DNA of 64,000 bases, from the NCBI GenBank assembly GCA_900299145.1, contig OMIN01000121.1:36564-100563 (forward strand), given 5' to 3'. This DNA comes from Betaproteobacteria bacterium (lineage in GTDB: Bacteria > Pseudomonadota > Gammaproteobacteria > Burkholderiales > SG8-41). Under the pieces are notes generated by a model. It did not search any database. It worked only from the letters and a program-made list of their open reading frames with translations, and was not told the DNA's origin. Position numbers and translations under genes: made by a program. Each line of letters begins with the position of its first letter. Within the stretch, counting starts at the first letter, position 1. Positions 3,217-61,316 of the stretch are shown piece after piece.

Positions 3217-4188
3217 ATGCGCCCAGCCACTGCCGCCATTGTTTTGAGCTTGCTCGCGTGTGCGGGCGTGCCGGCCTGTTTCGCGCAAACGGCTTACCCG
3301 TCGAAACTGGTGCGCATTGTCAATCCGGTGGCTGCCGGCGGCAATCAGGACGTGGTGGCGCGCGCCTACGCCGAGCAGTTCGCCAGAAACCTGGGGCAGC
3401 AATTTGTGGTGGAAAGCCGCCCCGGCAACAGCGCCATCGTCGGCACACGCTATGTCAAGACCTCGCCCGCCGACGGCTACACGCTGCTCGCGATTTCCAA
3501 CACCTACGCGCGCACGCCGGCCATGATCAAGGATTCCGGCTACGACCCGATCAAGGACTTCGCCGCCATTTCCATGACCAGCGACACCGCGCTGGTGTTT
3601 GTCATCACCCCCACACTGCCGGTGAAAACGGTGAAGGAGTTCATCGCGCTTGCCAAACAGCGGCCCGGTGAAATTTCCAGCGGCTCGTCCGGTAGCGGCT
3701 CTACTGGCCATGTCGCGGCAGAAATGTTCAGCCGCCGCGCCGGCATCAAGCTGCTGCACATTCAATACAAGGGGGCAGCCCCCGCCGTGATTGATCTCGT
3801 GGGCGGGCACGTGATGCTGCGCTTCGATCAGGTGACAACCTCGTTGCCGCACATTCGCGCCGGCAAGCTGCGCGCGCTGGCCGTCACCAGCGGCAAGCGG
3901 TCCGTGCTGATGCCCGAAGTGCCTACCGTGGATGAATCCGGCCTGCCGGGTTTTATCGATACCACGTTCAACGGCCTGCTCGCACCCGCCGGCACGCCGC
4001 CCGCCATCATCGAACGTCTGCGTGCGGAAACCGCAAAGGCAGCCGTCATACCCGAATTGCGCAAACGCTATCAGGATCTGGGCATCGAACTTGTCGCCAG
4101 CAAGACGTCCGAGGAATTCGCGGCGTTTTTGCGCAACCATGTCGAGGAATTCACCAAGCTCGCGCGCGACGCAGGCATGGCCCAGTGA
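3217..4188 (+). CDS. tripartite tricarboxylate transporter substrate-binding protein (Bug/TctC)
   Basis: Signal peptide, YPSKLVRIVNPVAAGG, PADGYTLL, GELRAL-type motifs of the Bug family. Confidence 0.9.
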   Translation: MRPATAAIVLSLLACAGVPACFAQTAYPSKLVRIVNPVAAGGNQDVVARAYAEQFARNLGQQFVVESRPGNSAIVGTRYVKTSPADGYTLLAISNTYARTPAMIKDSGYDPIKDFAAISMTSDTALVFVITPTLPVKTVKEFIALAKQRPGEISSGSSGSGSTGHVAAEMFSRRAGIKLLHIQYKGAAPAVIDLVGGHVMLRFDQVTTSLPHIRAGKLRALAVTSGKRSVLMPEVPTVDESGLPGFIDTTFNGLLAPAGTPPAIIERLRAETAKAAVIPELRKRYQDLGIELVASKTSEEFAAFLRNHVEEFTKLARDAGMAQ

Positions 4189-9560: not shown

Positions 9561-9598
9561 ATATTTTTAAGTATTTGTTTTTATTGATATTTTTATAA
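9561..9598 (-). repeat. AIR copy 4
   Basis: atatttttaagtatttgtttttattgatatttttataa. Confidence 0.9.
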
Positions 9599-12540: not shown

Positions 12541-13542
12541 TCACTCCAATGATTTAATATTAGCAGCCTTGATCAGCTTGCCGGTGATCGCCATGTCTTC
12601 CTTGCGGATCTGTGCCATCTCCGTGGCGCCGGCCGTAAAGCTGTCCAGCCCCTGACGGCTGATTGCCGCGCGCACATCAGGCATGGCCGAGATTTTTTGC
12701 GTGGCGGCCGACAGTTTGTCGACAACCGTTTTCGGCGGGTTGGCGGGCGCGGCAATCGCATACCAGTTGCGCAGCACCAGCCCCGGCAGGCCGGATTCCG
12801 TAAACGTCGGCAATTGCGGCAAAACCTCCAGCCGCTTGTCGCCGGTGATGGCAATGCCGCGCAAACGGCCCGACTTCACCATCGGCACGGCACCTGACGG
12901 ATTGGCGAAAGCCAGTTGCACTTGACCGCCAACCAGGTCCGTCATGGCAGGGCCCCCGCCCTTGTACGGCACCTGCTGCATTTTGATGCCGGCCAGCATT
13001 TCAAAATAAAGCGGCCCCAGATGCGTCGGCCCGCCCGTGCTTGAGGTGGCATAGTTGAGTTCGCCCGGCTTCTTTTTGGCGAGATCAATGAGCTCGCGCA
13101 CCGTGGTGACCGGCAGGCCGGGATGCACCACGAGCATAAACTCGCTGCGCGCGATGCCGGCAATCGGCGTGAAATCCTTGATCACGTCGAACGGCACGTT
13201 GCGGTAAATTTGTGAAATCGCGATTGAGCTGCTGCCCGCGAGCAGCAACGTATAGCCGTCGGGCGGCGCTTTCGCCACGAGGTCGGTACCGATGATGGTG
13301 TTGCCGCCGCCTCGGTTGTCGACCACCACCTGTTTACCAAAAATATCGGTGAGCTTGGGACCAAACAATCTCGCCAGAAAATCATTAGATCCACCCGGCG
13401 GATAGGCGACGACGATGCGGATGGGCCGGGTGGGGTAATCGGCCTGTGCTAATGCCACATTGGCCACACCAGCATGTGGCAGCCCGCCCGCTGCCAACAT
13501 TGCAGCCGCCATGAAACGGTGAACATGGGGCGATGGCTTCAT
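12541..13542 (-). CDS. Bug-family substrate-binding protein
   Basis: YPTRPIRIVVAYPPGGSNDFLARLF, PPDGYTLL, VPYKGGGPAMTDLVGGQV. Confidence 0.95.
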   Translation of the reverse strand: MKPSPHVHRFMAAAMLAAGGLPHAGVANVALAQADYPTRPIRIVVAYPPGGSNDFLARLFGPKLTDIFGKQVVVDNRGGGNTIIGTDLVAKAPPDGYTLLLAGSSSIAISQIYRNVPFDVIKDFTPIAGIARSEFMLVVHPGLPVTTVRELIDLAKKKPGELNYATSSTGGPTHLGPLYFEMLAGIKMQQVPYKGGGPAMTDLVGGQVQLAFANPSGAVPMVKSGRLRGIAITGDKRLEVLPQLPTFTESGLPGLVLRNWYAIAAPANPPKTVVDKLSAATQKISAMPDVRAAISRQGLDSFTAGATEMAQIRKEDMAITGKLIKAANIKSLE

Positions 13543-13576
13543 GGCGTCTCCCGGCAGTGGTGCAGCGTCACGACAT

Positions 13577-14587
13577 TCAACTCAACGGCGGCAATGTCCC
13601 GCGTGGCACTGCCAGTAGAGCATCGTAGATCTGACGGTCGATTTCGAGGCCTGCTTTAACCAAGCGCGCGCGTTCACGCACCGAGCGTTCGCCCGGCAAA
13701 CGGATTTCATCCACGCCGGGCTGGCGCGGAGCGGCTTTCACCGTTGCCAGCATGTCGCTCATATGCTGCCGGAAATCACCCGCCGGCAGCATGCGTTCGG
13801 GGTCGATGGCCATGATGAAGTAGCCGTAGATTTTATCGTCGCCAAAACCCGACCCCGCCAGCACGCCCAGCGCCTGCATGGCCATCGACAGCGCGAAACC
13901 CTTGTAACCCCCGAATGGCAGTATCGTCGCCACTTTCAGCGGATCCGTCGTGATCTTACCCTCGGCATCCATCGCCACGCCTTCGGGCAGCGGCGTGCCC
14001 ATGCGTTCACGCAATTGCAGATCGGTGCCCATGAAGGCCGAAGTGCCCAAGTCGATTACAAACGGATCGGAGAGGGTGGGGAACCCAAAGGCCACCGGGT
14101 TGGTGCCAGTCACCGGCCCCATTGAACCGGGTGCGGCCACGTGCGCGCGGCTCGACACGGTGTGCAGGGCCACCAGCCCGGCGCGCGCGACGAGATCAAC
14201 GTAATAAGCGCTACGGCCGCTCATCCACGAGTTATTGATGCCAACCATCGCCATGCCCTGCCCGCGCGCCATCGCGATCACTTTCTGCGCGGCGTGATAC
14301 ATGGTGACCATGCCGCTGTTGTTGCCGCCGTCGTAAAGCACCGAATTCGGCGTTTCACGAATGACGCGCATGCGGCTGCGCGGCTGACGCAACGCCGGAT
14401 ACTCAATCACGTTGAGAATTTTTGGCAGGCCTGAATATTCGTAGCCGCACAGCGCCGCATCCATCACGTGATTGGCAATGATGCGCGCCTCTTCGGCGTC
14501 GTAACCTGCGCGACAGAGCACGTCCTCAGAAAGATTCTGCGCCTCGTCGACGGTCAGTCGGACTCTGCCGGGTGAGAGAATTTCCAT
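13577..14587 (-). CDS. Ldh/malate dehydrogenase-type (LDH2 family) oxidoreductase
   Basis: GVNNSW-like GINNSWMSGRSAYYVDLVARAGLVALHTV, GTNPVAFGFPT, PFGGYKGFALSMAMQAL. Confidence 0.85.
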   Translation of the reverse strand: MEILSPGRVRLTVDEAQNLSEDVLCRAGYDAEEARIIANHVMDAALCGYEYSGLPKILNVIEYPALRQPRSRMRVIRETPNSVLYDGGNNSGMVTMYHAAQKVIAMARGQGMAMVGINNSWMSGRSAYYVDLVARAGLVALHTVSSRAHVAAPGSMGPVTGTNPVAFGFPTLSDPFVIDLGTSAFMGTDLQLRERMGTPLPEGVAMDAEGKITTDPLKVATILPFGGYKGFALSMAMQALGVLAGSGFGDDKIYGYFIMAIDPERMLPAGDFRQHMSDMLATVKAAPRQPGVDEIRLPGERSVRERARLVKAGLEIDRQIYDALLAVPRGTLPPLS

Positions 14588-14631: not shown

Positions 14632-14668
14632 AACGTAACTATTTGTTTTTATTATTATTTTTTAATAC
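14632..14668 (-). repeat. AIR copy 6
   Basis: aacgtaactatttgtttttattattattttttaatac. Confidence 0.9.
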
Positions 14669-15789: not shown

Positions 15790-16851
15790 GTGTTGCGACC
15801 GTTCGCAAAACGCGACAGACTAACAGCCGTGAAAAGCCCACTATTTGCAATTGTTCGCAGCGGCCCGCCCAGCGGTCCCAAGGTTGCTGTTGCCGCCATC
15901 GTTGCCGTTGCGGCGTTGTCACCATGGAACGCACTGGCAGCGGACGCAACCCCCACGTTTCCCACCAAGCCGATACGCATGGTGTCGGCCACCGCACCGG
16001 GCAGCCAGCCCGACTACATTGCCCGCCTGTTGATCCAGAAAATGAGCGACGCCTGGGGCAAGCCGGTGATCATGGACAACCGCACGGGCGGCGGTGGATT
16101 ACTTGCCTCATCGCTTGTGGCCAAGGCCGCGCCCGATGGGCACACGCTGCTCTATGTGCTGCCCAACTTCGTCATCAGCCCGGCATTGCAGCCGACAGTT
16201 ACATTCCCGGCGGTAAGCGAATTTGTGGGCATTGGCCAAATTGGATTCAGCACCAACATTCTGGTTGCGTCGCCTTCCATCGGCGTGAAAGGCATCAAGG
16301 ACTTTATCGCGCTGGCCAAGTCACAGCAGGGCAAGCTGATCATCGCCTCCACTGGCGCTGGCACTGCGGGCCATCTGAGCGGCACGCGCTTTAACCTGCT
16401 GGCCGGCATCAAGGCAGTACAAGTGGCCTACAAAGGCGGCCCCGAGGTGATGATTGAACTGATTTCCGGGCGCAGCCACTACGCGGTGACGACCATGGGT
16501 TCGGCGCTGCCGTTTATCACCGAAGGCAAGCTCACCGCGCTTGCGGTAACCACGCCCAGACGCGCGCCGGTGTTGCCCGACGTGCCGTCACTCGGCGAAA
16601 TACAACCCGAATTCCGCCAATCCGAAACCTCGCACGGCCTGCTTGCGCCGGTGGGCACACCGCGCGCCATCCTGCATCAGATCAGCCGCGAGGTGGCGCG
16701 CGAACTCGAACTGCCCGACATCCGCGAAAAGCTGAACGCCATCAGCTTCGTCATCGCACCGAGCACGCCGGAGGCCTACGACAAAATCGTGCGCGAACAG
16801 ATGAACCTGATTTCCACGTTGGTCGTGGCCGCCGGATTGCGGGGAAAATAG
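15790..16851 (+). CDS. Bug-family substrate-binding protein (start uncertain, possibly 15829 GTG)
   Basis: FPTKPIRMVSATAPGSQPDYIARL, APDGHTLLYV, VAYKGGPEVM. Confidence 0.9.
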   Translation: MLRPFAKRDRLTAVKSPLFAIVRSGPPSGPKVAVAAIVAVAALSPWNALAADATPTFPTKPIRMVSATAPGSQPDYIARLLIQKMSDAWGKPVIMDNRTGGGGLLASSLVAKAAPDGHTLLYVLPNFVISPALQPTVTFPAVSEFVGIGQIGFSTNILVASPSIGVKGIKDFIALAKSQQGKLIIASTGAGTAGHLSGTRFNLLAGIKAVQVAYKGGPEVMIELISGRSHYAVTTMGSALPFITEGKLTALAVTTPRRAPVLPDVPSLGEIQPEFRQSETSHGLLAPVGTPRAILHQISREVARELELPDIREKLNAISFVIAPSTPEAYDKIVREQMNLISTLVVAAGLRGK

Positions 16852-16861
16852 AAAGCAGAAA

Positions 16862-17890
16862 ATGAAAAATGAAAGCAGGCGAATTTTGAAAATACTCCCG
16901 CTACACGGCATCGTACCGTGGCTGACGGCACTCATCACTGCAGCGCCCGTTTGTGCGCAGACAGCATCGACCAGCGGAGCGCAATCCTTCCCCACCAAAC
17001 CGATCCGTCTCATCGTGCCTTATCCGCCCGCGGGTTCCACCGATTTCGTCGCGCGCGAGGTCGGTGCAAAAATGGGCGAGTACATGGGGCATCAGGTGAT
17101 AATCGACAACCGCCCCGGCGCGGGCACGCTGCTCGGTCTGCAACTGGGCGCAACGGCACGGCCCGATGGTTACACCATCACCTTCGCCACCTCTTCAGGC
17201 CTTGCGGTTAACCCCGCACTGGGCGTGAAAATGCCTTTCGAGCCGTTGCGCGATTTCATACCGATCGGGCTGCTGGTTTACGTGCCGTACTTCATTGTCA
17301 TCAATCCCGCTCTGCCCGCGCGCAACATCAAGGAGCTGATCGATTACGCCAGGACCCAGCCCGGCAAACTCAACTTTGCCTCGCCGGGTGTCGGCACCCC
17401 CAATCATCTGGGCATCGAAATGCTGAACCAGATGGCTGGTGTGAAATTCGTACACGTGCCGTACAAGGGCGGCGCGCAGGCCATCACCGATCTGGTGGCA
17501 GGCCAGGTGCAACTGATGTTCTCCGGCATTCCGCAGTTCTCGGCGTTCACCAAAGTCGGCCGGCTGCGGGTGCTTGCTGCCTCCACCACCAAACCCACGC
17601 GCGTGGCGCCCGACATGCCGCTGGTGGCAGATGTTTTCCCCGGCTTTGATTGCAACACCTGGTTCAGTCTGGTCGCCCCCACGGGCACGCCGCAGCAAGT
17701 GATCACGCGATTGAACAACGAAATGAATCGCGCGCTGGTAGAGCCCAGCGTGGTTCAGCGTCTGCTTGATCAGGGCGTCGAGGCGACACCCGGCACGCCA
17801 GCGGCGTTGCGTAACCTCATCGTCAGCGAAACCGAACGCTGGCGTAAAGTCATCAAGGCCGCCGGGATCACCGCGGAGTCGGTGAAGTAG
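16862..17890 (+). CDS. Bug-family substrate-binding protein
   Basis: FPTKPIRLIVPYPPAGSTDFVAREV, VPYKGGAQAITDLVAGQVQLMF. Confidence 0.95.
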   Translation: MKNESRRILKILPLHGIVPWLTALITAAPVCAQTASTSGAQSFPTKPIRLIVPYPPAGSTDFVAREVGAKMGEYMGHQVIIDNRPGAGTLLGLQLGATARPDGYTITFATSSGLAVNPALGVKMPFEPLRDFIPIGLLVYVPYFIVINPALPARNIKELIDYARTQPGKLNFASPGVGTPNHLGIEMLNQMAGVKFVHVPYKGGAQAITDLVAGQVQLMFSGIPQFSAFTKVGRLRVLAASTTKPTRVAPDMPLVADVFPGFDCNTWFSLVAPTGTPQQVITRLNNEMNRALVEPSVVQRLLDQGVEATPGTPAALRNLIVSETERWRKVIKAAGITAESVK

Positions 17891-17989: not shown

Positions 17990-19429
17990 ATGCCAGCCTA
18001 TCAAGACACCCAACTTTTCATCAACGGCGTTTGGGGCCCCGCCGCCTCGGGCCGCACGCTGCCGGTGGTCAACCCGGCCACGCATGCCGAGATCGGCAAA
18101 GTGGCCTACGCCGAAAAAGCCGATCTCGATCGCGCGCTGGAGGCCGCCGACGCCGGCTTCAAGGTGTGGAAAAAGGTATCCGCGTTTGAGCGCTGCAAGA
18201 TCATGCGCAAGGCGGCGGATATTTTCCGTTCACGCGCCGACCGCGTGGCGGAGCTGATGACGCTCGAACAGGGCAAGCCTGTCGGCGAAGCCAAGCTGGA
18301 AGCCCTGGCCGGCGGCGATATCATCGACTGGTTTGCCGAAGAGGGCCGCCGCGCGTATGGCCGCGTCATTCCCGCGCGCGCCGAGGGCGTGTATCAACTG
18401 GTGGTGAAAGAACCCGTCGGCCCGGTGGCGGCCTTTACGCCGTGGAACTTCCCGATCAATCAGGCGGTGCGTAAACTGTCGGCGGCGCTCTCCACCGGCT
18501 GCTCGATCATCCTGAAAGCGCCGGAAGAAACACCGGCCTCGCCCGCCGAACTGGTGCGCGCATTTCATGATGCCGGCGTGCCCGCGGGCGTGATCAATTT
18601 GGTCTACGGCAGCCCATCGGAAATTTCGAGCTATCTGATCCCCCACCCGGTGATTCGCAAAATGACCTTCACGGGTTCGACCCCGGTGGGCAAGCTGCTC
18701 GCCGGCATGGCAGGCCAGCACATGAAGCGGGCCACCATGGAGCTCGGCGGTCACGCGCCGGTGATTATTTTCGACGACGCCGATGTCGAGCTCGCCGCGA
18801 AAACCATGACCTTCATGAAGTACCGCAACGCGGGCCAGGTGTGCGTGTCGCCCACGCGCTTTCTGGTGCAGGAAGGCATTTACAAACAGTTTGTCGACAA
18901 ATTCGTCGAGGGCACGAAAGCCGTGAAAGTCGGTGACGGCTTCGACAAAGACACCAAAATGGCCACCATGGCCAACCCGCGCCGGCAGACCGCGATGATC
19001 AGCAACGTCGAAGATGCGAAACAACATGGCGGCAAAATTCAAACCGGCGGCTTCCCCATCGGCGAGAAAGGCAACTTCTTCGAGCCGACGGTCATCACCG
19101 AACTCGACAAGAGCGCGCAAGCGATGAACACCGAACCCTTCGGCCCGCTGGCGATCATCAACCCGTTCAAAACGTTTGATGACGCCGTCACCGAAGCCAA
19201 CCGCCTGCCCTACGGTCTCGCCGCGTACGCGTGGACCCGCTCGGCAAAAACCGCCAACAACATCGCCGCGCAAGTCGAAACCGGCATGGTCACCATCAAC
19301 CACCTGGGCCTCGCGCTACCCGAAGTGCCGTTCGGCGGCGTGAAGGATTCAGGCTATGGCTCTGAAGGTGGCACGGAAGCGCTGGAGCCCTATCTGGTGG
19401 GTAAGTTTGTGACGCAGGCGGGATTATAA
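17990..19429 (+). CDS. NAD(P)-dependent aldehyde dehydrogenase, succinate-semialdehyde dehydrogenase-like
   Basis: [49 protein letters not shown]. Confidence 0.9.
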
Positions 19430-19456
19430 AAATTCAATAAAAACAGACAGTTATAG
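19426..19456 (+). repeat. AIR copy 7
   Basis: ataaaaattcaataaaaacagacagttatag. Confidence 0.9.
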
Positions 19457-19847: not shown

Positions 19848-20465
19848 CTATTTTTTGATGTTCTGCACAGCCCACGCAACCAGCTCCTCAACCAGCGCAT
19901 CGCTCGCGCCGGCCAGCGCCTGCGCGGCCCCCGGCGCATTGGGTGCAGCGGGGCGTTCGGCGCTAAAGCTGCGTTGCGCATGCAGGGCGCGCGTATTCTG
20001 ATCGATGAGTGAGGCGCGCAGCCGCGCAGTGGCCTTACTCGCCTGTGCGGATTCAAACTGCTGACTGAAATCCTCCAAATCGATGCGCAGCGTGTAATCG
20101 GCGCGCGCGCCATCCTGCGCGGTGACCACGCCACGCGATGCCGCTGCGAAGCGCGCACGCACGCGTTCGGTCAGCATCAGCGCGGGCGACATGGCCCAGC
20201 GGTTTTGCGCGTAGGCGTCCGGCTGGCTCGCGTTCTGATAGATCAGCCGGTATTGAATGTTCGCGTTGTCGAGCAAAGGGCTTGCGGCCACGGGTGGAAT
20301 CAGCAGCGTGGCATTGATGACGGGCTTCGCGGCGGACTGCGCGCGCTGCGGGCCGAGGTCGAATACGGCGGGCGCATCACGTTTTTCCGGACCGAGGGCA
20401 CAGGCACTCAGCAAGAAAAAAATACTCAATAAAAACAGATACTTATGGATTTTCATGCGGACCAT
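19848..20465 (-). CDS. ABC-type transport auxiliary lipoprotein (PqiC/YmbA-like)
   Basis: Lipobox LLSACALG; follows the MCE gene in the cluster; YRLIYQNASQPDAYAQNRWAMSPALMLTERVR. Confidence 0.8.
   Translation of the reverse strand: MVRMKIHKYLFLLSIFFLLSACALGPEKRDAPAVFDLGPQRAQSAAKPVINATLLIPPVAASPLLDNANIQYRLIYQNASQPDAYAQNRWAMSPALMLTERVRARFAAASRGVVTAQDGARADYTLRIDLEDFSQQFESAQASKATARLRASLIDQNTRALHAQRSFSAERPAAPNAPGAAQALAGASDALVEELVAWAVQNIKK
20417..20447 (+). repeat. AIR copy 8, inside lipoprotein signal-peptide coding region
   Basis: aaaaaatactcaataaaaacagatacttatg. Confidence 0.9.
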
Positions 20466-20471
20466 CCTTGA

Positions 20472-21455
20472 TTATCGTTTCTGCGGCTCCACAGACCCCG
20501 ACTCCCCCGGCCCCGGCCGGCCGCTGGGGCGGCCAAACACCAATCCTGCGGGCTGCTCGTTCAACTCCGACAACAGCCGATCCAGATTCCGCGAGTTGCG
20601 TGCAAGCTCTTCTAGCAGCGTGTTGACGCGCGGTGCGATGTCACCGGAAAGACTGGAGGCCGCGCCCTGCGATGCCGCGCCCACCTGCTCCACACCTTTC
20701 GCCGCGCGATCCAGCGCATCCGCACGTTGCGCGTATTCGCGCGCGAGTTTGTCGATGCTGGCAAGCGTGGTCTTCGCTTCTTTCAGCGCGGGTGCAAGAT
20801 CACGTATCGCCACATCGGCATTCGCGATCATTTTGCGCGTATCGGCGGTGAGCGCCGGCACGTTTTTCATGCCCGGCTCCAGCGTCTGCGCCAATGAGCC
20901 GATGCGTTTGGAGGCGCCTTCCAGCTCGGCGATGGTCTTGATGAGTTGCACCTGATTCTTGTCTTCCAGCAGCTTGTTCACCCGCTGCGCGACTTCGCCA
21001 AACTGAGTAATTAAATCCTTGCCTGAACCGGTGAGTTCATCGAAGAATGATTTTTGCACGACGATGCGCTTATCCTTGTCATCGGACGGCGGCAGGAAAG
21101 TCTGATTCTTGCCGTCGTCGTCCAGCACAATGTACGCGAGCCCTGTTATGCCCTGCGTGCCCAACTGCGCAGTCGTACCTTTGGTGATGCGCGTGCCGCC
21201 CTTGACGTTGATCTTGATGAGAATGTTACGCGGGTCGTCATTGTCGAAATCGATGCTCTCGACCTTGCCGACCTCCACGCCGCGCAGCCGCACCGCCGCC
21301 TGCACGTTAAGCCCCGATACCGAATGGTTCGACACCAGCGTGTATTGCACTTTTTCGTAGTTGTCGCGGCTGAACCATTGAGCGGCCAGCAGAACGCCGA
21401 TGCCGAGCAATAATGTGAACAATCCGGCCGCCAGCGCGTGTGCGCGATTCTCCAT
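20472..21455 (-). CDS. MCE-family (MlaD-like) protein
   Basis: MENRAHALAAGLFTLLLGIGVLLA, VSGLNVQAAVRLRGVEVGKVESIDFD. Confidence 0.9.
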   Translation of the reverse strand: MENRAHALAAGLFTLLLGIGVLLAAQWFSRDNYEKVQYTLVSNHSVSGLNVQAAVRLRGVEVGKVESIDFDNDDPRNILIKINVKGGTRITKGTTAQLGTQGITGLAYIVLDDDGKNQTFLPPSDDKDKRIVVQKSFFDELTGSGKDLITQFGEVAQRVNKLLEDKNQVQLIKTIAELEGASKRIGSLAQTLEPGMKNVPALTADTRKMIANADVAIRDLAPALKEAKTTLASIDKLAREYAQRADALDRAAKGVEQVGAASQGAASSLSGDIAPRVNTLLEELARNSRNLDRLLSELNEQPAGLVFGRPSGRPGPGESGSVEPQKR

Positions 21456-21458
21456 GGC

Positions 21459-22331
21459 TTAATGTCCTTGCGCTGCTGTAATGTTGGTAACAGGTGCGGG
21501 CGTCTCCACGCCTTCCGGCGTACCCCCTGCCGCTCCGATATCCTTGATCGCTTCGAGCGCGCGTTTGCCGCGCTCGCCCTGAAAAAAATTGGCAATAAAC
21601 TGGTGCGTGGCGCTGGCAATTTGCTGCACCGAGCCGATGGCCACGATCTGCTGATCGGCGAGCACCGCCACGCGGTCCGATAACGACACCAGTGTATCAA
21701 GATCGTGCGTCACCATGACCACGGTCAACCCCAGTTCGCGGCGAATTTCCGCGATCAGCGTGACAAAACTTTCGCTGCGGTCGGGGTCGAGACCTGCCGT
21801 CGGTTCATCCAGAAACAGCAACTCCGGCTCCAGCGCCAGCGCGCGTGCGAGGCCAATGCGCTTGATCATGCCGCCCGACAGCGCCGAGGGCATTTTCTCC
21901 GCATGCCTGGCTTCGATGCCGACCATTTCGAGCTTCAAAATCACCAGGTCACGAATCAGCCCTTCGTCCAGTGCCTTCAATTCGCGCAGCGGTGTCGCCA
22001 CGTTTTCAAACACCGATAGCGCCGAATAGAGCGCACCTTCCTGAAACAGCACACCCCAGCGGTTGCGCAGCCGTCGCAGTTCCGCCGGATCGCCGGTAAT
22101 CAGCGAATGCCCGAACACCAGCACGTCGCCGCGTGTGGGGCTCTCCAGCCCCAGCATCTGCCGCAGCATGGTACTTTTGCCGCTGCCGGAACCGCCCACC
22201 AGTGACAAAATTTCACCGCGCTTTACACACAGGCTGATATCGCGATGCACCACCTGCGGGCCGAACACCGTCCAAAGCTTGCGCAATTCAATCACGCAAT
22301 CCGTTGCATCACAGGTTGCAGCATCGGCCAT
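21459..22331 (-). CDS. ABC transporter ATP-binding protein (MlaF-like)
   Basis: Walker A GGSGSGKST, LSGGMIKRIGLARALALEPELLFLDEPTAGLDP. Confidence 0.95.
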   Translation of the reverse strand: MADAATCDATDCVIELRKLWTVFGPQVVHRDISLCVKRGEILSLVGGSGSGKSTMLRQMLGLESPTRGDVLVFGHSLITGDPAELRRLRNRWGVLFQEGALYSALSVFENVATPLRELKALDEGLIRDLVILKLEMVGIEARHAEKMPSALSGGMIKRIGLARALALEPELLFLDEPTAGLDPDRSESFVTLIAEIRRELGLTVVMVTHDLDTLVSLSDRVAVLADQQIVAIGSVQQIASATHQFIANFFQGERGKRALEAIKDIGAAGGTPEGVETPAPVTNITAAQGH

Positions 22332-23488
22332 CAGCTGATCCCCACGTGCGAGAACATCACCGCGAACACCGCGTCAACCACGATCACCGTGGTAATCGCC
22401 GCCACCACCGAGCGCGTGGTGCCCGCGCCGAGGCTTTCTGTGTTCGGTTCAATGCGCAGCCCGTAATGGCAGGCCAGCAACGCGATCAGCACGCCGAACA
22501 CCACGCCTTTGCACAAGCCCAACCACAGGTTTGCAACCGGCACGGCCTGCGGCAGCGCACTCAGGAAATACTTCATCCCCAGGCCCAGTTCGATTTGCGC
22601 CGCAACCATGCCGCCAAGCAGCGCAATGGCATTGGTCCACAGCACGACCAGCGGCATGGCGATCGCCAGCGCCAGCATTTTCGGCAATACCAGCCGCAAC
22701 GTGTGCGGAATCCCCATGACCGCCATGGCGTCGATTTCCTCGGTGACGCGCATCACGCCCAACTGCGCCGTCATCGCCGAGCCGGAACGCCCCGCAATTA
22801 AAATGGCTGCCAGCACCGGCCCCAGCTCGCGGATTACCGCGACCCCCTGCAGGTTGACGATAAAAATATCTGCGCCGAACGTTTTCAACTGCTGCCCGGT
22901 GAGATACGACAGCACAATGCCCACCAGAAACCCCACCAGCGCGGTAATGCCCAGCGCCTGCGTGCCCGTGCGGTACACATTGGCGGAAATTTCCTTCCAT
23001 GGTATGCGTGACGGGTGGCGCACGATCTCGCATAAATTCAGCATCACCGCGCCCAGCAGCCGCATCACGCCCAAGGCATGATCCCACAGCGCCAACACCT
23101 GCGCGCCGACGGCGACAACGAACGCCAGCTTGTCGCGCGCCACCGTGTCCACCGGCTTCGCCGACACCAGCTTCAGATGCGTGAAAATGATTTCGTGTTC
23201 AGGCCGCAGCTCAAGATTCACCACGCGCTGATAGCCCCACACGCGCCACAGCATCATTGCACCGGCATGGTCAAGCCGTGTGATGCCGCTTAAATCCCAT
23301 TGCGCATTCCGCGGCACTTGCGCAAGACGCGCCGTCATGTCCGCCATCAGCGGCTCCAGCGAGCGCAGATTCCATGCGCCCACCACAGAAACCGTCGCAG
23401 CGCCATCACGCGCCGGCGCGACATGAAACTCGGGGGGCACCCACGCAGGCGCGGAAGATGAAGGCAGGGTAGCTGCGGAATCGGACAT
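22331..23488 (-). CDS. ABC transporter permease (MlaE-like) with N-terminal STAS-like domain
   Basis: ELGPVLAAILIAGRSGSAMTAQLGVMRVTEEIDAMAVMGI; N-terminal VVGAWNLRSLEP...WDLSGITRLDHAGAMML. Confidence 0.9.
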   Translation of the reverse strand: MSDSAATLPSSSAPAWVPPEFHVAPARDGAATVSVVGAWNLRSLEPLMADMTARLAQVPRNAQWDLSGITRLDHAGAMMLWRVWGYQRVVNLELRPEHEIIFTHLKLVSAKPVDTVARDKLAFVVAVGAQVLALWDHALGVMRLLGAVMLNLCEIVRHPSRIPWKEISANVYRTGTQALGITALVGFLVGIVLSYLTGQQLKTFGADIFIVNLQGVAVIRELGPVLAAILIAGRSGSAMTAQLGVMRVTEEIDAMAVMGIPHTLRLVLPKMLALAIAMPLVVLWTNAIALLGGMVAAQIELGLGMKYFLSALPQAVPVANLWLGLCKGVVFGVLIALLACHYGLRIEPNTESLGAGTTRSVVAAITTVIVVDAVFAVMFSHVGIS

Positions 23489-23760: not shown

Positions 23761-23850
23761 TGAAGTTGTGCGTCGCAGCAATTTAAGAGAATTCCGCGAC
23801 AATAAGAACACTGTAAAAATTTAACTATTTGAATTTAAAGGAGATTTAAA

Positions 23851-24462: not shown

Positions 24463-24644
24463 TGGTAAAGGCCATACCGAAAGAATCGCCTACCCATGCC
24501 GCACGTGATCTGTGCGGTAAAGAAAGTAACCGCGACACGAAAGGCCCGCCCCGATAACCTGGTTACTCATGTCTTAATGCTGTGGAAGTTTGCAGCTGGG
24601 TAGAATTGGCAGCGAATTGCCAAAGGCGCTCATTGCCCTTACAC

Positions 24645-24665
24645 TATACACATTTGATGTGTATA
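24645..24665. promoter_or_regulatory. candidate VapBC autoregulatory operator
   Basis: Perfect inverted repeat TATACACA-TTTGA-TGTGTATA just upstream of the antitoxin ATG (24677). Confidence 0.7.
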
Positions 24666-24676
24666 AACTCACAATC

Positions 24677-24916
24677 ATGAAAACCGCCAAAACTTCCCTG
24701 ACGCGTACCGGTGAACGTACAAACGTAGTGCTTGATGTCAAACTGGTGCGGGCCGTCAAGCGCTTGGCCAAGGTGCGCACCACACGCGATGCTCTGCATA
24801 TCGCGCTGGATCACTATGTCCGCAGCCGTGATTATTCTGAGGTGTTGAAATTGCGTGGCAGCGGCGGCGTTACCCCGGGCTATGACCCCAAGACCGCCAG
24901 TCCATCGCGCCTATAG
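24677..24916 (+). CDS. vapB: VapB-type antitoxin
   Basis: 79 aa, TRTGERTNVVLDVKLVRAVKRLAKVRTTRDALHIALDHYV; directly abuts PIN toxin. Confidence 0.8.
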   Translation: MKTAKTSLTRTGERTNVVLDVKLVRAVKRLAKVRTTRDALHIALDHYVRSRDYSEVLKLRGSGGVTPGYDPKTASPSRL

Positions 24917-25321
24917 ATGCTTGTCGACTCCTCGGTTTGGGTGAGGTATCTGCGTGGTGATTCCACGCCCGAAGTGGAGCTGCTGACTCGAGCCTTGACA
25001 CAATCAAGGGCGATTTGGCTAGCGCCACCAATCTTGCAAGAGGTTTTGCAGGGCGCTGACCGGCAAGACCGCTTGAACCGTTGGGATCGTATATTGGGCG
25101 AATTACCCATGCTGCTGCCGGGAGACTTGCGTGAAACGACACGTGCAGCCGCTCGGCTCTATGCGCATTGCCGCTGGAGAGGTGTAACGCCACGATCCGC
25201 CAATGATTGCTTAATTGCCATGTACGCCATCGAACATGGCGTACCGCTGCTGCATTGTGATCGCGATTTCGATCACATCGCGCGGGTTGATCGGCGATTG
25301 GAAATTGTGGCTGTCGCGTGA
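24917..25321 (+). CDS. vapC: VapC-type PIN-domain ribonuclease toxin
   Basis: MLVDSSVWVRYLRG, ANDCLIAMYAIEHGVPLLHCDRDFDHIA; acidic PIN residues present. Confidence 0.9.
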   Translation: MLVDSSVWVRYLRGDSTPEVELLTRALTQSRAIWLAPPILQEVLQGADRQDRLNRWDRILGELPMLLPGDLRETTRAAARLYAHCRWRGVTPRSANDCLIAMYAIEHGVPLLHCDRDFDHIARVDRRLEIVAVA

Positions 25322-33428: not shown

Positions 33429-34585
33429 TCAGGCGCGCCAACGTAGGGGCTGATTTCGCCGTTGGAGTAAAAGCCTGTCAACACGGTGTGTTCGCCGAAT
33501 ACCTTTGCAACTGCTTCGACTTCCTCATCCACGCGCCCGCCCATCACGAGCTTGCGTCCGACGCAGCTGACCAGCAGCGCGAGGCCGCGCGCGCCACTCT
33601 TTTGCGCATTGCGCGCCGCTGCCGCCGCCGCATTGGCCGCAGCTTCCGCGCCGTCGACCAGCGCGTCGGTGCTCGCGCTCATCAGCCGCAGATAGCCGCC
33701 CTCGACGATATCGCCGGCGAGTGTCAGGCTGCCGGCCTTTTCATCCACGCCCAGTATGGTGCGGATCAATCCCGTCTCGCTATGATCCTTGCCCAGCATG
33801 GCAAATGGGAACAGCAGCCCGGAACCCGGCAGGTCGCGCGCATAGTCGCCGAGATAGCGTTTGTAAATACGCAGCGCCGGTTCGCCATCAAGTTCATACA
33901 ACACATTGGCTTTCGCACGTGTCACCAGACGCGTCGCGCCAAACGGCTGCCAGCCACCAAACGAGCCGTGCGACAACGTGATCGATGAACCGTAAAAACC
34001 CACGCCCAATACGCATTTATCCGTCACCCTGCCGCCGCACAACACCCATGTGTGCTGAAATTTGCCACCGTCTCCGGCAAGCCCGCCGGTGAGCGTGACA
34101 CCCGCGCCCACAGCTTGCACAATGCCTTCGATCAGCGCGCTGCCATTGATGTTCACGCCCTGCCCCAGCACCAGAATCGAGTGCAACGCCTTCCCCTCGT
34201 GCGTCCCCGCGAGCTTTTCGCCCAAACGCCGGCCCGCCTCCGCGGAGTCTTCCATGCCATTGATTTCGACACACCCCACGCGAAAATCCGGCTGCCTGAA
34301 ACGCACCGCCGTCATCACCACGCTGTCATCAAACACATTGCTGCCAACAATTTCACCGGCAGTACTGCAGCCGACGAGTTGTGCGCGTGGAAACTGTTCA
34401 CGCAGCAGGGCGGGCAAGGCCGCATCCGTCATTCGGCTCACCGAGCCGAACACCAGCACCAGATGCGGATCAAGCCGTGTCAGCGACGCCAACTCGCCAG
34501 CATTGGGCGCCGCCTGACAATGGGCTTGTGCGATTTCCATAATTTATCTCCAGCCGTTTGCAGGCACGGAACAACAGCGCGCCCC

Positions 34586-34616
34586 ACAAAATCAATAAAA
34601 ACAGATACTTATATTC
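34586..34616 (+). repeat. AIR copy 12
   Basis: acaaaatcaataaaaacagatacttatattc. Confidence 0.95.
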
Positions 34617-41082: not shown

Positions 41083-41499
41083 CTACAGCATCGGCGGACC
41101 GTCGGCCTCGCTGCGCTTCCAGCGCACCTGTTCCGTGCGCAGGCCGCGTGCGCCCAACGCAAACTTGCGGGTCTGGGCAACGCCTTCGTAGGTCAGCGTT
41201 GCCACATAATTGCCCGCCGGCAACAACGCCAGCAGGATCGGACCATCCACGTTTTGCTCCAGCACCACCTTGCCGCTGGCATCAGCAACCTTCACGGCCA
41301 CATCGGCGATGTAGTCGCCTTCCATGAAGGTGAACAGAAACTTGAGATTGAACTTGCCCTGCTGCGGCCGCAACACGGCGTTTTCCTCAATGCCGATACC
41401 GCCGGAGAGCGTGGGCGCCTGCGCGTTTTGCGCCTGGGCGCCCTGCGTCAGGGACAACAAAAAACTCAATAAAAACAAATATTTATAAAATTTCGTCAT
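41083..41499 (-). CDS. exported carboxypeptidase-regulatory-like protein
   Basis: MTKFYKYLFLLSFLLSLTQGAQAQ signal peptide; ILLALLPAGNYVATLTYEGVAQTRKFALGARGLRTEQVRW. Confidence 0.7.
   Translation of the reverse strand: MTKFYKYLFLLSFLLSLTQGAQAQNAQAPTLSGGIGIEENAVLRPQQGKFNLKFLFTFMEGDYIADVAVKVADASGKVVLEQNVDGPILLALLPAGNYVATLTYEGVAQTRKFALGARGLRTEQVRWKRSEADGPPML
41461..41491 (+). repeat. AIR copy 15, inside signal-peptide coding region
   Basis: aaaactcaataaaaacaaatatttataaaat. Confidence 0.9.
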
Positions 41500-45547: not shown

Positions 45548-45637
45548 GTAGTCGAGCTAGTGAGAAAAGCCAAATTGTTTATCGATTAACGAGCCTGACG
45601 AGCGCGGTGAGCTTGATGAGCACGACAAACTACAACT

Positions 45638-45717
45638 GTCGTTCCCGCGCAGGCGGGAACCCATAACACACGTGGCATCGCAATCACCCTATGGATTCCC
45701 GCCTGCGCGGGAATGAC
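45638..45717. repeat. inverted pair of REP-like palindromes
   Basis: TGTCGTTCCCGCGCAGGCGGGAACCCAT ... ATGGATTCCCGCCTGCGCGGGAATGACA. Confidence 0.85.
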
Positions 45718-45805
45718 ATGGATAATTTTGCGTGCTTTTCCAAAGAACACAGTGGCATGCACATTCCTATCCGATGTCATACGTGATTGCTATTAACACG
45801 CCCCC

Positions 45806-46890: not shown

Positions 46891-47850
46891 CTACCGTGGC
46901 TTGATTCCCGCCGCCTGTGCAATTTTGCGGTAGCGGTCGGCATCCGCATTCACAAAAGCACGTATTTCCTGTGGCGTGTAATTCACGACCAGCGCGGTGC
47001 GCGTCGCCTGGTAGGCACGCCCTTCCGGGCTGGCCATCGCGGCCTTAAAACCCTCATACAGCTTGTTGACAATGGCGTCGGGCGTTTCCGTGCGCGCGAA
47101 AATCGAACTCCACGAATAACTCACAAAATCCGGAAAGCCGCTTTCCTTCATCGTCGGCACGTCGGGCAAAATCGGCGCGCGCGCTTCACCCGTCAGCACA
47201 AGCCCGCGCATGCGGCCCTCGCGGATCAACGGTGCTGCGCCGCCGCTGTCGATCATGCCGGAAGGTATCTGCCCACCGATGACATCGGTCATCACGGGAG
47301 AGCCGCCCTTGTAGGGCACCGGCGTAATTGCCAACCCGTTGACCAGACCAAACCAGTGACTGAGCAATTCGTACCCGGCGGAATAATTGCCCACGGCCAG
47401 GGGGTTGCCGGATTTTTTCATCGCCGCGGCGAATTCCTTGACCGTTTTGCCGGGCACATTAGGGCCGACCACAAACACCGTGGGCGAAAGACCAAACAGA
47501 ATCACCGGGCGAAACTCCTTGATCGGATCATGCGGCAAATCCTTCATCACCACCGGGTTCACCGAAATCGTCGACGTGGTGCCGGTGAGCAGCGTATAGC
47601 CATCCGCCGCCGCGCCCTTCACCGTTTGCACGGCGATGATGCCGCTGCCGCCGGGGCGGTTATCCACCACGATGCTTTGGCCCCACAGCTTCGCCACCCA
47701 CTCGCCGTAAAAACGCGGATTGGCGTCGGAGCCACTGCCGGCGGCGAATGGCACGACAATGCGGATGGATTTGGCGGGATAGACCTGCTGAGCTTGCACG
47801 GCCGGCGCAACTGCACTTGTGAGGCTTATCGCAAGCAGAATGCGCTTCAT
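46891..47850 (-). CDS. Bug-family substrate-binding protein
   Basis: YPAKSIRIVVPFAAGSGSDANPRFYGE, AADGYTLL, VPYKGGSPVMTDVIGGQI. Confidence 0.95.
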   Translation of the reverse strand: MKRILLAISLTSAVAPAVQAQQVYPAKSIRIVVPFAAGSGSDANPRFYGEWVAKLWGQSIVVDNRPGGSGIIAVQTVKGAAADGYTLLTGTTSTISVNPVVMKDLPHDPIKEFRPVILFGLSPTVFVVGPNVPGKTVKEFAAAMKKSGNPLAVGNYSAGYELLSHWFGLVNGLAITPVPYKGGSPVMTDVIGGQIPSGMIDSGGAAPLIREGRMRGLVLTGEARAPILPDVPTMKESGFPDFVSYSWSSIFARTETPDAIVNKLYEGFKAAMASPEGRAYQATRTALVVNYTPQEIRAFVNADADRYRKIAQAAGIKPR

Positions 47851-47957
47851 GATTTTCTCCAGCGAATCAATATGATTTGTAACGCAGTGTGCTGCCGCGT
47901 GTCGTGGGCGTCAAGTTTCAGCGTCCTGCCCGGCGATTTTGTGGCAAAGTCGCGCCC

Positions 47958-48929
47958 ATGGTGACTCGAATTCTGGCAACGGTGCTTGGCTGCGCCTCGA
48001 CGCTCGGCGTGCACGCAGCCCAGCTTCTGCCCTATCCTGTCAAACCACTGCGCATCCTCGTCGGCTTTTCGCCAGGCGGTGCTTCCGACATCACCACGCG
48101 CATTATCGGCCAAAAGTTGAGCGAGGCATTCGGCCAGCCCGTCGTCACCGATAACCGCGCCGGCGCCAGCGGCGCCATCGCCGCGCGCATCGTCAAGGAT
48201 GCCCCGCCCGACGGTTACACGCTGCTCTCCGGCGCAACCAGCATCCTCGCCATCAACCCGGCGATGATGGCAAAGCTCGGCTACAACTCGATCAGGGATT
48301 TCACGCCTGTGTCGCAAACGGTGTCGATGCCGCAGGTGCTGGTGGTGCACCCCGCCGTCAAGGCCGCCTCACTGAAAGAGTTGATCGCGTTGGCGAAAGC
48401 GCGGCCCGGCGAACTGAATTACTCGTCTTCCGGCAGTGGCAGCTCCAGCCATCTGGCGATCGAGCTGCTGAAATTCATAACCGGCATCAACCTCGTGCAT
48501 GTGCCGTTCAAAGGCAGCGGGCAATCGATGCCGGCGCTGCTGGCGGGACAAGTGCAAATGATTTTTGATCCACTACCAACCTCGCTGCCGCACGTGAAAA
48601 GCGGCAAACTTCGCGCGCTGGCGATCTCTACACTGAAACGCTCGCCCGCCATGCCGGATTTGCCCACCGCCGCTGAAGCGGGCGTGCCGGGTTTCGACAG
48701 CAGCTTGTGGTACGGCCTGCTGCTGCCGGCGGACGCCCCGCTTGCACTAGTGGAACGGCTAAATAAAGCCACGAACGATGCGTTGGCTGCACCCGATTTA
48801 CGCGAACGTTTTGCGGCGTTGGGGGCGGATGCGGTGGGTGGCACGGCGGCAAACTTTGGCCAGTTCATTGCGGAAGAAATCGGTAAATGGGGCAAGGTCA
48901 TCAAGGCAGCGGGGATCAAGGGTGAATAA
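47958..48929 (+). CDS. Bug-family substrate-binding protein
   Basis: YPVKPLRILVGFSPGGASDITTRIIGQKLSE, PPDGYTLLSGA. Confidence 0.95.
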   Translation: MVTRILATVLGCASTLGVHAAQLLPYPVKPLRILVGFSPGGASDITTRIIGQKLSEAFGQPVVTDNRAGASGAIAARIVKDAPPDGYTLLSGATSILAINPAMMAKLGYNSIRDFTPVSQTVSMPQVLVVHPAVKAASLKELIALAKARPGELNYSSSGSGSSSHLAIELLKFITGINLVHVPFKGSGQSMPALLAGQVQMIFDPLPTSLPHVKSGKLRALAISTLKRSPAMPDLPTAAEAGVPGFDSSLWYGLLLPADAPLALVERLNKATNDALAAPDLRERFAALGADAVGGTAANFGQFIAEEIGKWGKVIKAAGIKGE

Positions 48930-49881
48930 AATTTTCTTCATGGCTGCAATCAGTACGCTTTGCAGCCATGCGGCGTATGCACAACCCTACCCCGCCAAAC
49001 CCGTCAAGCTGATGGTGGGTTTTGCGGCTGGTGGCGCTGCCGACGTCACGGCACGCGTACTCGCCCCCAGGCTCGCGGAAGCATTCGGCCAGCAGTTCGT
49101 GATTGAAAACCGTGGCGGGTCAGGCGGGCTGCTCGCCACCGACGCGGTGTCGAAATCACCCGCTGACGGCTACACGCTGCTGTTGATGCCCGCTGCGGAC
49201 ACCATTCAGCCGGCCATGCGGCGTAAGCTGCCGTATGACCTTGAGCGCGATTTTGTGCCGGTGACGCGCATTGTGTTCGGGCCGTGGTTCATGATCGTGC
49301 ATCCGTCCGTGCCGGCGAAAAACCTCAAGGAATTTATTGCCATTGCGCGCGCGAGCCCGGGTAAGCTCAACTACGCATCTTCGGGTGTCGGCAGTTCCGC
49401 GCAAATGGTGGCTGAATTACTGAATCCGCTGGGCGGCATCAAACTCACGCACGTGCCGTACAAGGGCATATCGGACGGGGTTACGGCCACCGCCAGCGGC
49501 GAAGTCGACATGATCATCGCCAGCATTCCCGCGTCAACGCCGCTGCTCAATGCCAAACGCGTGCGCTCGCTGGGCGTCACCACCGGGCAGCGCACGCCAC
49601 TGGCACCCCACATGCCCACGCTGGCCGAGCAGGGCTTGACCGGCTTTGACCGCTCCGGCTGGTACGGGCTGCTCGCGCCCGCAGGGACGCCTCGCGATAT
49701 TGTCGCGCGGCTCAATGCCGCCATCGTGAAAATCGTCAACACGCCGGAAATGCGCGACACCTATATGAAGCAGGGCCTTGATCCGGCGACCAGTACGCCG
49801 GAGGAATTCGCCGCGTTTATCCGCAGCGAGATCGCACAAAATGTGAAGCTGGTGAAGAGCGCGGGCATCCGCGTGGAGTAG
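48922..49881 (+). CDS. Bug-family substrate-binding protein (GTG start overlapping previous stop)
   Basis: YPAKPVKLMVGFAAGGAADVTARVLAPRLAE, VPYKGISDGVTATASGEVDMII. Confidence 0.95.
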   Translation: MNKIFFMAAISTLCSHAAYAQPYPAKPVKLMVGFAAGGAADVTARVLAPRLAEAFGQQFVIENRGGSGGLLATDAVSKSPADGYTLLLMPAADTIQPAMRRKLPYDLERDFVPVTRIVFGPWFMIVHPSVPAKNLKEFIAIARASPGKLNYASSGVGSSAQMVAELLNPLGGIKLTHVPYKGISDGVTATASGEVDMIIASIPASTPLLNAKRVRSLGVTTGQRTPLAPHMPTLAEQGLTGFDRSGWYGLLAPAGTPRDIVARLNAAIVKIVNTPEMRDTYMKQGLDPATSTPEEFAAFIRSEIAQNVKLVKSAGIRVE

Positions 49882-52295: not shown

Positions 52296-52329
52296 CAAAT
52301 AGATATTCAATAAAAACAGATACTTACGA
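52296..52329 (+). repeat. AIR copy 19
   Basis: caaatagatattcaataaaaacagatacttacga. Confidence 0.95.
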
Positions 52330-58106: not shown

Positions 58107-59111
58107 TCACTCAGGCTTGATACTGCCCACCTTGATGATCGACTGAAAGCGCAGATACTCCTCCTGCATGTGGCGCATAAAGCCTTCGGGCGAAGTATCC
58201 GGCGTGGATTCCGCGCCCTGATTCACGAAGCGCGCGCGCAGCGAGCCCTTGCGCAGCACGCGCGCGATGTCACTGTGCAATTGCTCAACCACGCGCCGTG
58301 GCGTGCCTCTGGGCGCAACTATCCCCGACCAACTGTCAAACTGGGCTTCGGGCAATCCGACTTCGGCGATCGCCGGCACGTTAGGCAACGTCGGGCTGCG
58401 CTGCGGCGTCATCACCGCCAGCGCGCGCAGCCTGCCCTCGCGCACCGGCCCAAGCGCCGCGGGCAATGTATAGATGGCGTAATGCACGCGGCCCAGCGCC
58501 ATTTCAACGAAAGAATCGGTTGCCACGCGAAACGGTATATGCACCGCGTCGATGCCGAGCGCGCGCGAAAACACTTCCGCCGCCAGATGCGACGCCGAGC
58601 CGATGCCCAGCGACGCATAGTTCAGTTCGCCCGGCCGCACACGTGCATAGGTGACGAATTCGCGTGCCGTCGACACCGGCAGCGTGCGTGTGACCGCCAG
58701 CACATTGGTGATCGAAGCGACATGCGCCACGCCGACGATGTCGCCCAGCGCCTTGTACGGCGGCGCTTCACGCATCAGCTCGGTAATCAAACGCGTGACG
58801 CCGATCATGCCCAGCGTGTAACCGTCAGCGGTGGCGCGCGATACCTTAGTGTTACCGATCAGCCCGCCCGCGCCGGGACGGTTTTCGATCAACACGCGCC
58901 GCTGGTAAAAATTTTCGAGTTCGTCAGCCAGCAGGCGCGCGAAAAAATCATCCGCCGCGCCCACGGACGAAGCGACAATGATGCGTATGGGCTTCACCGG
59001 GTAATCGGCCAAAGCATCCGGCGTATTGGCCATGCCACGCCCTGCCGCGAGCAACAGACACGCGGCCATCAGCGTGGCATAGCACAAACGTGCAATCGGA
59101 TTCTGGGGCAT
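58107..59111 (-). CDS. Bug-family substrate-binding protein (start chosen at MPQNPIARL)
   Basis: YPVKPIRIIVASSVGAADDFFARLLADELE, TADGYTLGMIGV. Confidence 0.9.
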   Translation of the reverse strand: MPQNPIARLCYATLMAACLLLAAGRGMANTPDALADYPVKPIRIIVASSVGAADDFFARLLADELENFYQRRVLIENRPGAGGLIGNTKVSRATADGYTLGMIGVTRLITELMREAPPYKALGDIVGVAHVASITNVLAVTRTLPVSTAREFVTYARVRPGELNYASLGIGSASHLAAEVFSRALGIDAVHIPFRVATDSFVEMALGRVHYAIYTLPAALGPVREGRLRALAVMTPQRSPTLPNVPAIAEVGLPEAQFDSWSGIVAPRGTPRRVVEQLHSDIARVLRKGSLRARFVNQGAESTPDTSPEGFMRHMQEEYLRFQSIIKVGSIKPE

Positions 59112-59208
59112 TTGGAAACGCGAATATTTAATGCGGCGGGCCAATGCATTTAGCACCAATTGCATGCCCACTGCAACAGCGCGGTTTGGCCCAAATCGTT
59201 CGATTGAT

Positions 59209-59238
59209 TTTTTTATTAATAAAAACAAATACTTACAA
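59209..59238 (+). repeat. AIR copy 22
   Basis: ttttttattaataaaaacaaatacttacaa. Confidence 0.9.
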
Positions 59239-59375
59239 CCCTTCTGTTTCATGGCTCGACGGCAGCACCTTGCAAGGTAACCGGTTCGCCCCGCCATACA
59301 CACACGTCGCGCACCGGTCTACACTGCCGTCAACGCAAAAGGCAACGCCAAGGCCATCACAACACGGAGACTCGC

Positions 59376-60194
59376 ATGGAAATCGCACCCGGCATCCACA
59401 ACATCGTCACCGATCTTGAGCACGCCACCGGTGTCACCAACACGTACCTCATCGTCGGCAGCGGTGGCGCGCTGTTCGTCGACGCGGGCTGGGATCGTCC
59501 GGGCGAAGCCCGGGCACGCATCGATTACTGGACGAAGCTCGGCAAACCTCCGGTGAAAGGCATCGCCATCACCCACCGTCACGCGCCGCACTGGCAGAAC
59601 GCGCCGGCCCTCCAGCAAGCGTGCGGCCATCCGCCGATCATCGCTTCATTCGCCGAGAAGCCGGAAATCGAAGCGCGCATGGCAAAAGCCAAAGTAGACA
59701 AACCCGTGCGCGACGGCGACACGCTAAGCCTTGGCAATCTGACAGTGGAGTTTCTCGACGCGCCCGGCCACACCTACGGCAGCCTTGCGATTTTCATTCG
59801 CGAAAAACGTGCGCTGTTCACCGGCGATAATGTAATGGGCACCGGCAGTTCAGTAGTCAATCCGGGCGAAGGCGAAATCGTGCTGTATCTGCAAACCATG
59901 GAAAAATTTCTGCGCTACGACCCGGCGGTGATTTATCCCGGGCAGGGGCCGGTGGTGGCCGACCCACGTGGCAAAATCCAGTCGCTCATCGAACATCGCC
60001 GCTCGCGCGAGCGGCAGATCGTCGCCCTGCTGCAAAAAGCGCCACAGTCTGTCGAGCAGCTGACCGCCGCGCTCTACAAAGACGTCAAACCCGGTGTGGC
60101 GCATCTTGCACGCAATCAGGTGAAAAGCCATTTAATCAAACTGGAACAGGAACACCGCGCCGCCGCTGCGGGAGAAGAATACCGGCTGCTCTGA
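59376..60194 (+). CDS. MBL-fold metallo-hydrolase (divergent)
   Basis: TNTYLIVGSGGALFVDAGWDRPGEARARI; ITHRHAPHW; DAPGHTYGSLAIFIREKRALFTGDNVMGTG. Confidence 0.9.
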   Translation: MEIAPGIHNIVTDLEHATGVTNTYLIVGSGGALFVDAGWDRPGEARARIDYWTKLGKPPVKGIAITHRHAPHWQNAPALQQACGHPPIIASFAEKPEIEARMAKAKVDKPVRDGDTLSLGNLTVEFLDAPGHTYGSLAIFIREKRALFTGDNVMGTGSSVVNPGEGEIVLYLQTMEKFLRYDPAVIYPGQGPVVADPRGKIQSLIEHRRSRERQIVALLQKAPQSVEQLTAALYKDVKPGVAHLARNQVKSHLIKLEQEHRAAAAGEEYRLL

Positions 60195-60223
60195 CACGTA
60201 AACGATCCGGTGAATCCTGCGCA

Positions 60224-61267: not shown

Positions 61268-61316
61268 CAACACTCCTTCACGCCAAGAGTCAGCATCGGG
61301 CCACCATGCTAACATT

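Follow-up and report, generated by a model that had tools for sequence, protein, structure and literature searches.

An AT-rich DNA motif in the signal peptide of an Mla-operon lipoprotein: a candidate uptake-signal-like sequence in an uncultured member of the Burkholderiales

The motif copy in the lipoprotein gene

The window, the whole 64,000-nucleotide stretch of DNA analyzed here, derives from an uncultured Burkholderiales genome of 5.5 Mb and 60% GC, and raises the question of how one copy of a dispersed AT-rich motif came to lie within the signal peptide of a lipoprotein. The reverse complement of this copy (Table 1) is ATAAGTATCTGTTTTTATTGAGTATTT, and in the frame of the gene it reads AAG TAT CTG TTT TTA TTG AGT, or K Y L F L L S, followed by the lipobox LSAC. 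KYLFLLS forms the hydrophobic core of the signal peptide of a lipoprotein encoded in an MlaE/F/D cluster, and the enclosing ORF (19848-20465, minus strand) is an ABC_trans_aux protein (PF03886). The original prediction had given the sequence of the copy and had placed it at the signal-peptide core just before the lipobox; it was exact on the first point and correct on the second.

As judged from the sequences, translation of the lipoprotein likely starts at the ATG at 20456 (M-K-I-H-K-Y-L-F...) rather than at the ATG at 20465, because most close orthologues retain the internal ATG, whereas the upstream one is not conserved. A start downstream of the motif can be excluded, as no usable start codon is left between it and the lipobox. 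In most members of the genus the motif occupies these codons too, with some copies degenerate, and in genera without the motif the signal peptide of the orthologue is an ordinary GC-rich one (e.g., SAALALVALLGAC). Because these motif-free orthologues lack KYLFLL, the comparison leaves standing the proposal that the repeat supplies this part of the protein. The distance from the start to the lipobox cysteine is 19-20 residues in orthologues with the motif versus about 16 to 24 in those without it; since these ranges overlap, there is no clear insertion of nine residues in the lipoprotein.

Table 1. Motif copies and genes of the lipoprotein operon, with further motif copies in the window
Feature	Positions	Strand	Score (bits)	Description
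Motif copy in lipoprotein	20418..20445	-	48.6	Motif core TAAGTATCTGTTTTTATTGAGTATTTTT on the minus strand; encodes K-Y-L-F-L-L-S-I-F
Lipoprotein gene	19848..20456	-		202 aa, MKIHKYLFLLSIFFLLSAC...; PF03886, ABC-type transport auxiliary lipoprotein; start assigned to ATG 20456 (likely)
MlaD/MCE-domain protein	20472..21455	-		PF02470; operon of the lipoprotein, upstream of its gene
ABC transporter ATPase	21459..22331	-		PF00005; operon of the lipoprotein
MlaE permease	22331..23488	-		PF02405; operon of the lipoprotein
Intergenic motif copy	19426..19453	-		Neighbor of the lipoprotein copy, in the aldehyde dehydrogenase / HIT gap; place and orientation kept in G008
Weaker motif copy	23822..23848	+	30.8	Overlaps the ribosome-binding site of the gene downstream; conserved in eight relatives
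Intergenic motif copy	14636..14662	+	48.1	Kept in G007
Intergenic motif copy	9568..9594	+	52.1	Near consensus; kept in G007, weaker in G002
Intergenic motif copy	34585..34611	-		Kept in G002
Intergenic motif copy	52300..52326	-	43.7	
Second motif copy at a signal-peptide core	41458..41485	-		In ORF 41083-41499 (MTKFYKYLFLLSFLLSLTQGAQAQ...)

Abundance, layout and conservation of the motif

Base counts over 87 sites in 450 kb gave the consensus RTAASTATYTGWTTTWATTRAWWWTTTTT, an AT-rich and asymmetric sequence of ~30 bp with one invariant G, T-tracts about 12 bp apart, an information content of ~40 bits and nothing conserved outside it; it has no inverted-repeat arms, is not palindromic and forms no hairpin. 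An 18-mer (TAASTATYTGWTTTTATT, at most two mismatches) matched 1,098 sites in the 5.5-Mb genome versus one for the reversed pattern, and a position matrix detected 230 sites in the 816 kb of genome stretches on which our matrix counts, spacing and gene context are based, which scales to about 1,550; depending on the type of search, the genome-wide estimate is about 1,100 to 1,550 copies. The matrix threshold was fixed at 20 bits because iteration at low thresholds drifted to generic AT-rich DNA, and at this threshold the reversed control yielded 3 sites per 450 kb. The matrix found 24 copies in the window, where a 25-mer search gave one exact match (the lipoprotein copy) and three with 2-3 mismatches, with 0 expected in shuffled sequence. 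Matches to a degenerate 20-mer comprised 56 perfect, 63 single-mismatch and 39 double-mismatch sites, a very strong signal in which perfect matches do not outnumber single mismatches. An Rfam scan of the window returned no match, and a literature search for exact 18-mers of the motif found none. In viral contigs, a 22-mer had 19 exact matches, compared with 3 for its reversed control, and each contig carried a single match rather than multiple copies.

The copies are regularly spaced, with a mean gap of 3.4 kb and a coefficient of variation of 0.59 (230 sites, 816 kb), versus simulated values of 1.21 for random intergenic placement and 0.96 for uniform placement; comparable evenness was reached in none of the 500 intergenic simulations. 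Gaps under 1 kb numbered 15 versus 78 expected, and two copies occurred together in 2 of 588 intergenic regions. Based on genes called by a simple codon-usage script, 157 of the 230 copies are intergenic, although intergenic sequence makes up only 11% of the DNA. There is no strand bias (118 of 230 on the plus strand) and no relation between motif orientation and GC skew (p = 0.64). Replication polarity of the Chi or KOPS type was rejected on this lack of correlation; the motif resembles these sequences in being dispersed, over-represented and present roughly once per few kb, but they are polar with respect to replication and it is not. The largest motif-free stretches (maximum 13.6 kb), which were screened for foreign islands, contain mostly ordinary genes.

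The positions of the motif are kept among close relatives. Its presence in syntenic gaps agreed with this genome in five of five motif-bearing gaps in both G008 and G007, with no copy where it is absent here, and at seven of eight in G002; orientation was identical in every strong syntenic match, and some copies were lost in more distant members of the genus. The number of copies per genome ranged from 154 to 1,098 in 13 genus members and from 22 to 493 in genera g6, g7 and g8, and genera g2, g3, g4, g5 and g9 had essentially none, except for 19 matches in one g2 genome (G014). The g8 copies, few in number in the 100 kb searched, look like a variant, TAACNNRTTGTTTTTATT, which is possibly a dialect of the motif. 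A strong tandem repeat of the TAAACACTAAACACT type was also observed in one g8 genome (G020 C44, L094-L098). Three close relatives (L041, L043 and L046) were deposited as 'Bordetella parapertussis' MAGs, yet they group with uncultured Burkholderiales and their names look wrong.

ComEC and DprA are encoded in all 13 motif-bearing members of the genus. Neither gene was found in G009 (97% completeness), the sole genus member without motif excess (16 matches versus 6 in the control), and no excess of decayed motif copies was seen in 134 kb of this genome. In a TsaD tree, the single-gene basis for its placement, G009 formed a long branch nested within the genus (95/88). This link between motif and competence is support rather than proof, because it consists of one loss event in a fast-evolving genome of 49% GC. 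Moreover, competence genes do not predict the motif, because most motif-free relatives in the family also carry ComEC. In the motif-bearing g7 genome G051 (91% complete), no ComEC was seen; pilin-like genes are present in all genus members. The lipoprotein orthologue was also not found in G009 (L154-L163) and, together with its GC content, the absence of ComEC and DprA and its long branch, this would be consistent with an altered lifestyle.

Uptake signal, architectural site or inserted element

To our knowledge, uptake signal sequences have been described in Neisseriaceae and Pasteurellaceae only. Our analysis suggests that the motif is probably a DNA word of this kind, accumulated by substitution where proteins tolerate change, and we infer a function in DNA uptake and reading by a pilin-type receptor. 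Uptake sequences (USS and DUS) are described in the literature as regularly spaced, free of orientation bias, preferentially non-coding, derived by substitution and containing AT-rich segments at a distance of about 12 bp (PMC1626085, PMC7811141, PMC1939737). With the Pasteurellaceae USS, the motif shares a number of copies of ~1,000 or more, spacing more regular than random without orientation bias, a preference for non-coding DNA, copies at gene termini, origin by substitution instead of insertion, and an extended motif of ~30 bp whose AT-rich segments are spaced about 12 bp from each other (PMC1626085, PMC2346458, PMC7811141). It differs in being AT-rich throughout, without the GC-containing 9-bp core (AAGTGCGGT), and as an uptake signal it is a candidate. 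Relative to known DUS and USS in general, it is longer, more AT-rich and sparser (about one per 3.4 kb versus about one per 1 kb), and the inverted pairs near terminators that are seen in USS and DUS genomes are almost absent. The DUS of Neisseriaceae, the receptor of which is ComP, are likewise hosted by Betaproteobacteria, but they are unrelated in sequence and measure 10-12 bp versus ~30 bp. As with the motif, DUS are short and genome-wide, have genus-level variants, and occur in some genera of the family and are missing from others (PMC3630211).

Under the uptake-signal explanation, the natural-transformation machinery of this Burkholderiales genus and of several related genera (type IV pilus, ComEC and DprA) would preferentially bind and import DNA containing the ~30-bp AT-rich motif; imported fragments would recombine, so that base changes improving the match would spread, and copies would build up by substitution at harmless sites to about one per 3.4 kb. 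We put at slightly better than even the chance that the motif, ~30 bp long, AT-rich and read by a putative receptor, represents a third family of DNA uptake sequences that evolved independently of those of Neisseriaceae and Pasteurellaceae, and that it has spread so widely through the genome that perhaps 100 to 200 exported proteins owe their signal peptides to it. If so, this motif of environmental Burkholderiales, unrelated to the two known ones, would make it possible to ask whether molecular drive generates such signals wherever the uptake machinery is biased; its regular spacing would provide data for tract-length models, and its receptor could be sought by comparison of minor pilins.

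The regular spacing and kept positions would also be compatible with the binding site of a chromosome-architecture or segregation protein, the main rival explanation, which we consider unlikely but deserving of attention. Such a protein, bound every few kb, would organize the nucleoid, and selection would keep its sites evenly spaced with few of them coding; the asymmetric, AT-rich form of the motif and its paired T-tracts would suit a site of this type. However, nucleoid protein sites are usually far less strict than the ~40 bits per site observed here, the motif has no strand polarity relative to replication, and the joint absence of motif, ComEC and DprA in G009 is not predicted by an architectural role. 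Even spacing of uptake sequences was itself once taken as a sign of an architectural or segregation role by Karlin and colleagues, as cited in PMC1939737.

The origin of the copies was assessed by a gap test as for the Haemophilus USS (PMC1626085), in which motif-coded protein stretches were aligned to homologues with solved structures. None of the four proteins (TsaD, PyrC, AnmK and oligopeptidase A) had a gap at the motif-coded stretch, and TsaD codons across the genus pass from the GC-rich CTG AAT CAA CTG GTC to the motif sequence TTA AAT CAA ATA GTT with intermediates present; stepwise base substitutions were also observed in the lipoprotein orthologues. The gap-free alignments and the TsaD intermediates indicate that the motif arose by substitution, which argues against an inserted repeat. 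A MITE- or REP-like short mobile element showing target immunity, inserting intergenically and near gene starts and exapted as signal peptide, might explain the high copy number, the wide differences in counts among species (16 to 1,098) and, through the immunity, the even spacing. This explanation is largely refuted by the gap test and has become very improbable: the motif has no conserved ends or palindromic structure, substitution intermediates occur at orthologous sites, and hardly any species-specific gains or losses are found in syntenic gaps of close relatives.

These results also bear on the exaptation of a repeat as coding sequence put forward in the original prediction, of which the reality of the repeat and its contribution to the signal-peptide core are supported, but not the exaptation of an inserted element. 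The likeness drawn there to Rickettsia palindromic elements is confined to repetitive DNA that is translated in frame as part of a protein; the rickettsial elements are palindromes of 100-150 bp that have been inserted, whereas the motif is about 30 bp long, non-palindromic, without flanks, and derived by substitution, with no gap in any of the four proteins aligned. It is more plausible that the signal peptide tolerates a DNA signal found throughout the genome than that it explains why the repeat exists.

A transcription signal, namely a terminator, a promoter or the regulator site of a large regulon, would account for the 80% of copies in or straddling intergenic DNA and for the T-rich strand. 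It is as improbable as the mobile element: tandem, convergent and divergent gaps carry similar shares of the motif (31%, 34% and 27%), so that it marks neither promoters nor terminators, there is no preference for either orientation relative to flanking tandem genes (53 versus 63, p = 0.40), and copies occur inside genes and have no stem.

Motif copies inside genes

Coding copies are biased in both position and frame. In the 816 kb, 16 of the 27 sense-orientation coding copies lie within the first 60 nt of a gene (expected 6%, p = 4e-13), and 14 of these 16 use the single stop-free frame, encoding (K/N)YLFLL and then a hydrophobic run. As judged by eye, nearly all 16 are signal-peptide-like, with KYLFLL or similar; the repeat-derived signal peptide proposed for the lipoprotein is thus more than a one-off, as the other N-termini use the motif in the same way. 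About 11 reverse-orientation copies at gene starts provide the start itself, ATG AAT AAA AAC AAA TAC TTA (MNKNKYL), and other coding copies terminate genes (...KK followed by the stop). Although signal-peptide cores are Leu/Phe-rich and of low complexity, ordinary convergence of KYLFLL on hydrophobic residues with incidental DNA similarity can be practically dismissed, being refuted by the intergenic copies of the identical DNA word. This word, with a chance expectation of 0, also occurs in reverse orientation, the genome has 60% GC, and motif-free genera encode the same part with GC-rich codons.

According to the uptake-signal explanation, tolerated sites within genes would be few; in the sense orientation the one stop-free frame, (K/N)YLFLLxxF, would make an ideal signal-peptide core, the antisense orientation would yield the MNKNKYL start, and the lipoprotein signal peptide would be one such tolerated copy. 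Extrapolation from the 816 kb suggests that a signal at the DNA level would have written protein sequence at perhaps 100 to 200 sites. Many genes with a motif-coded N-terminus are Bug/TctC-type receptors (family judged by eye), and a DNA-level signal would in this way shape protein sequence on a large scale, in the signal peptides of many solute-binding proteins.

The window itself contains many similar genes resembling Bug/TctC-type solute-binding receptors (e.g., at 3217-4188, 12541-14587, 15979-17890, 46891-49881 and 58107-62339), and in other parts of the genome the motif encodes the signal peptides of several receptors of this type. At 24590-25321 on the plus strand, two short neighboring ORFs (108 and 134 aa) resemble, by eye only, a VapB-VapC-type toxin-antitoxin pair. 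A long inverted repeat at 45619-45736, with arms of 47 nt that are 81% complementary, 24 nt between them and the core GTTCCCGCGCAGGCGGGAAC, is palindromic and is separate from and unlike the AT-rich motif.
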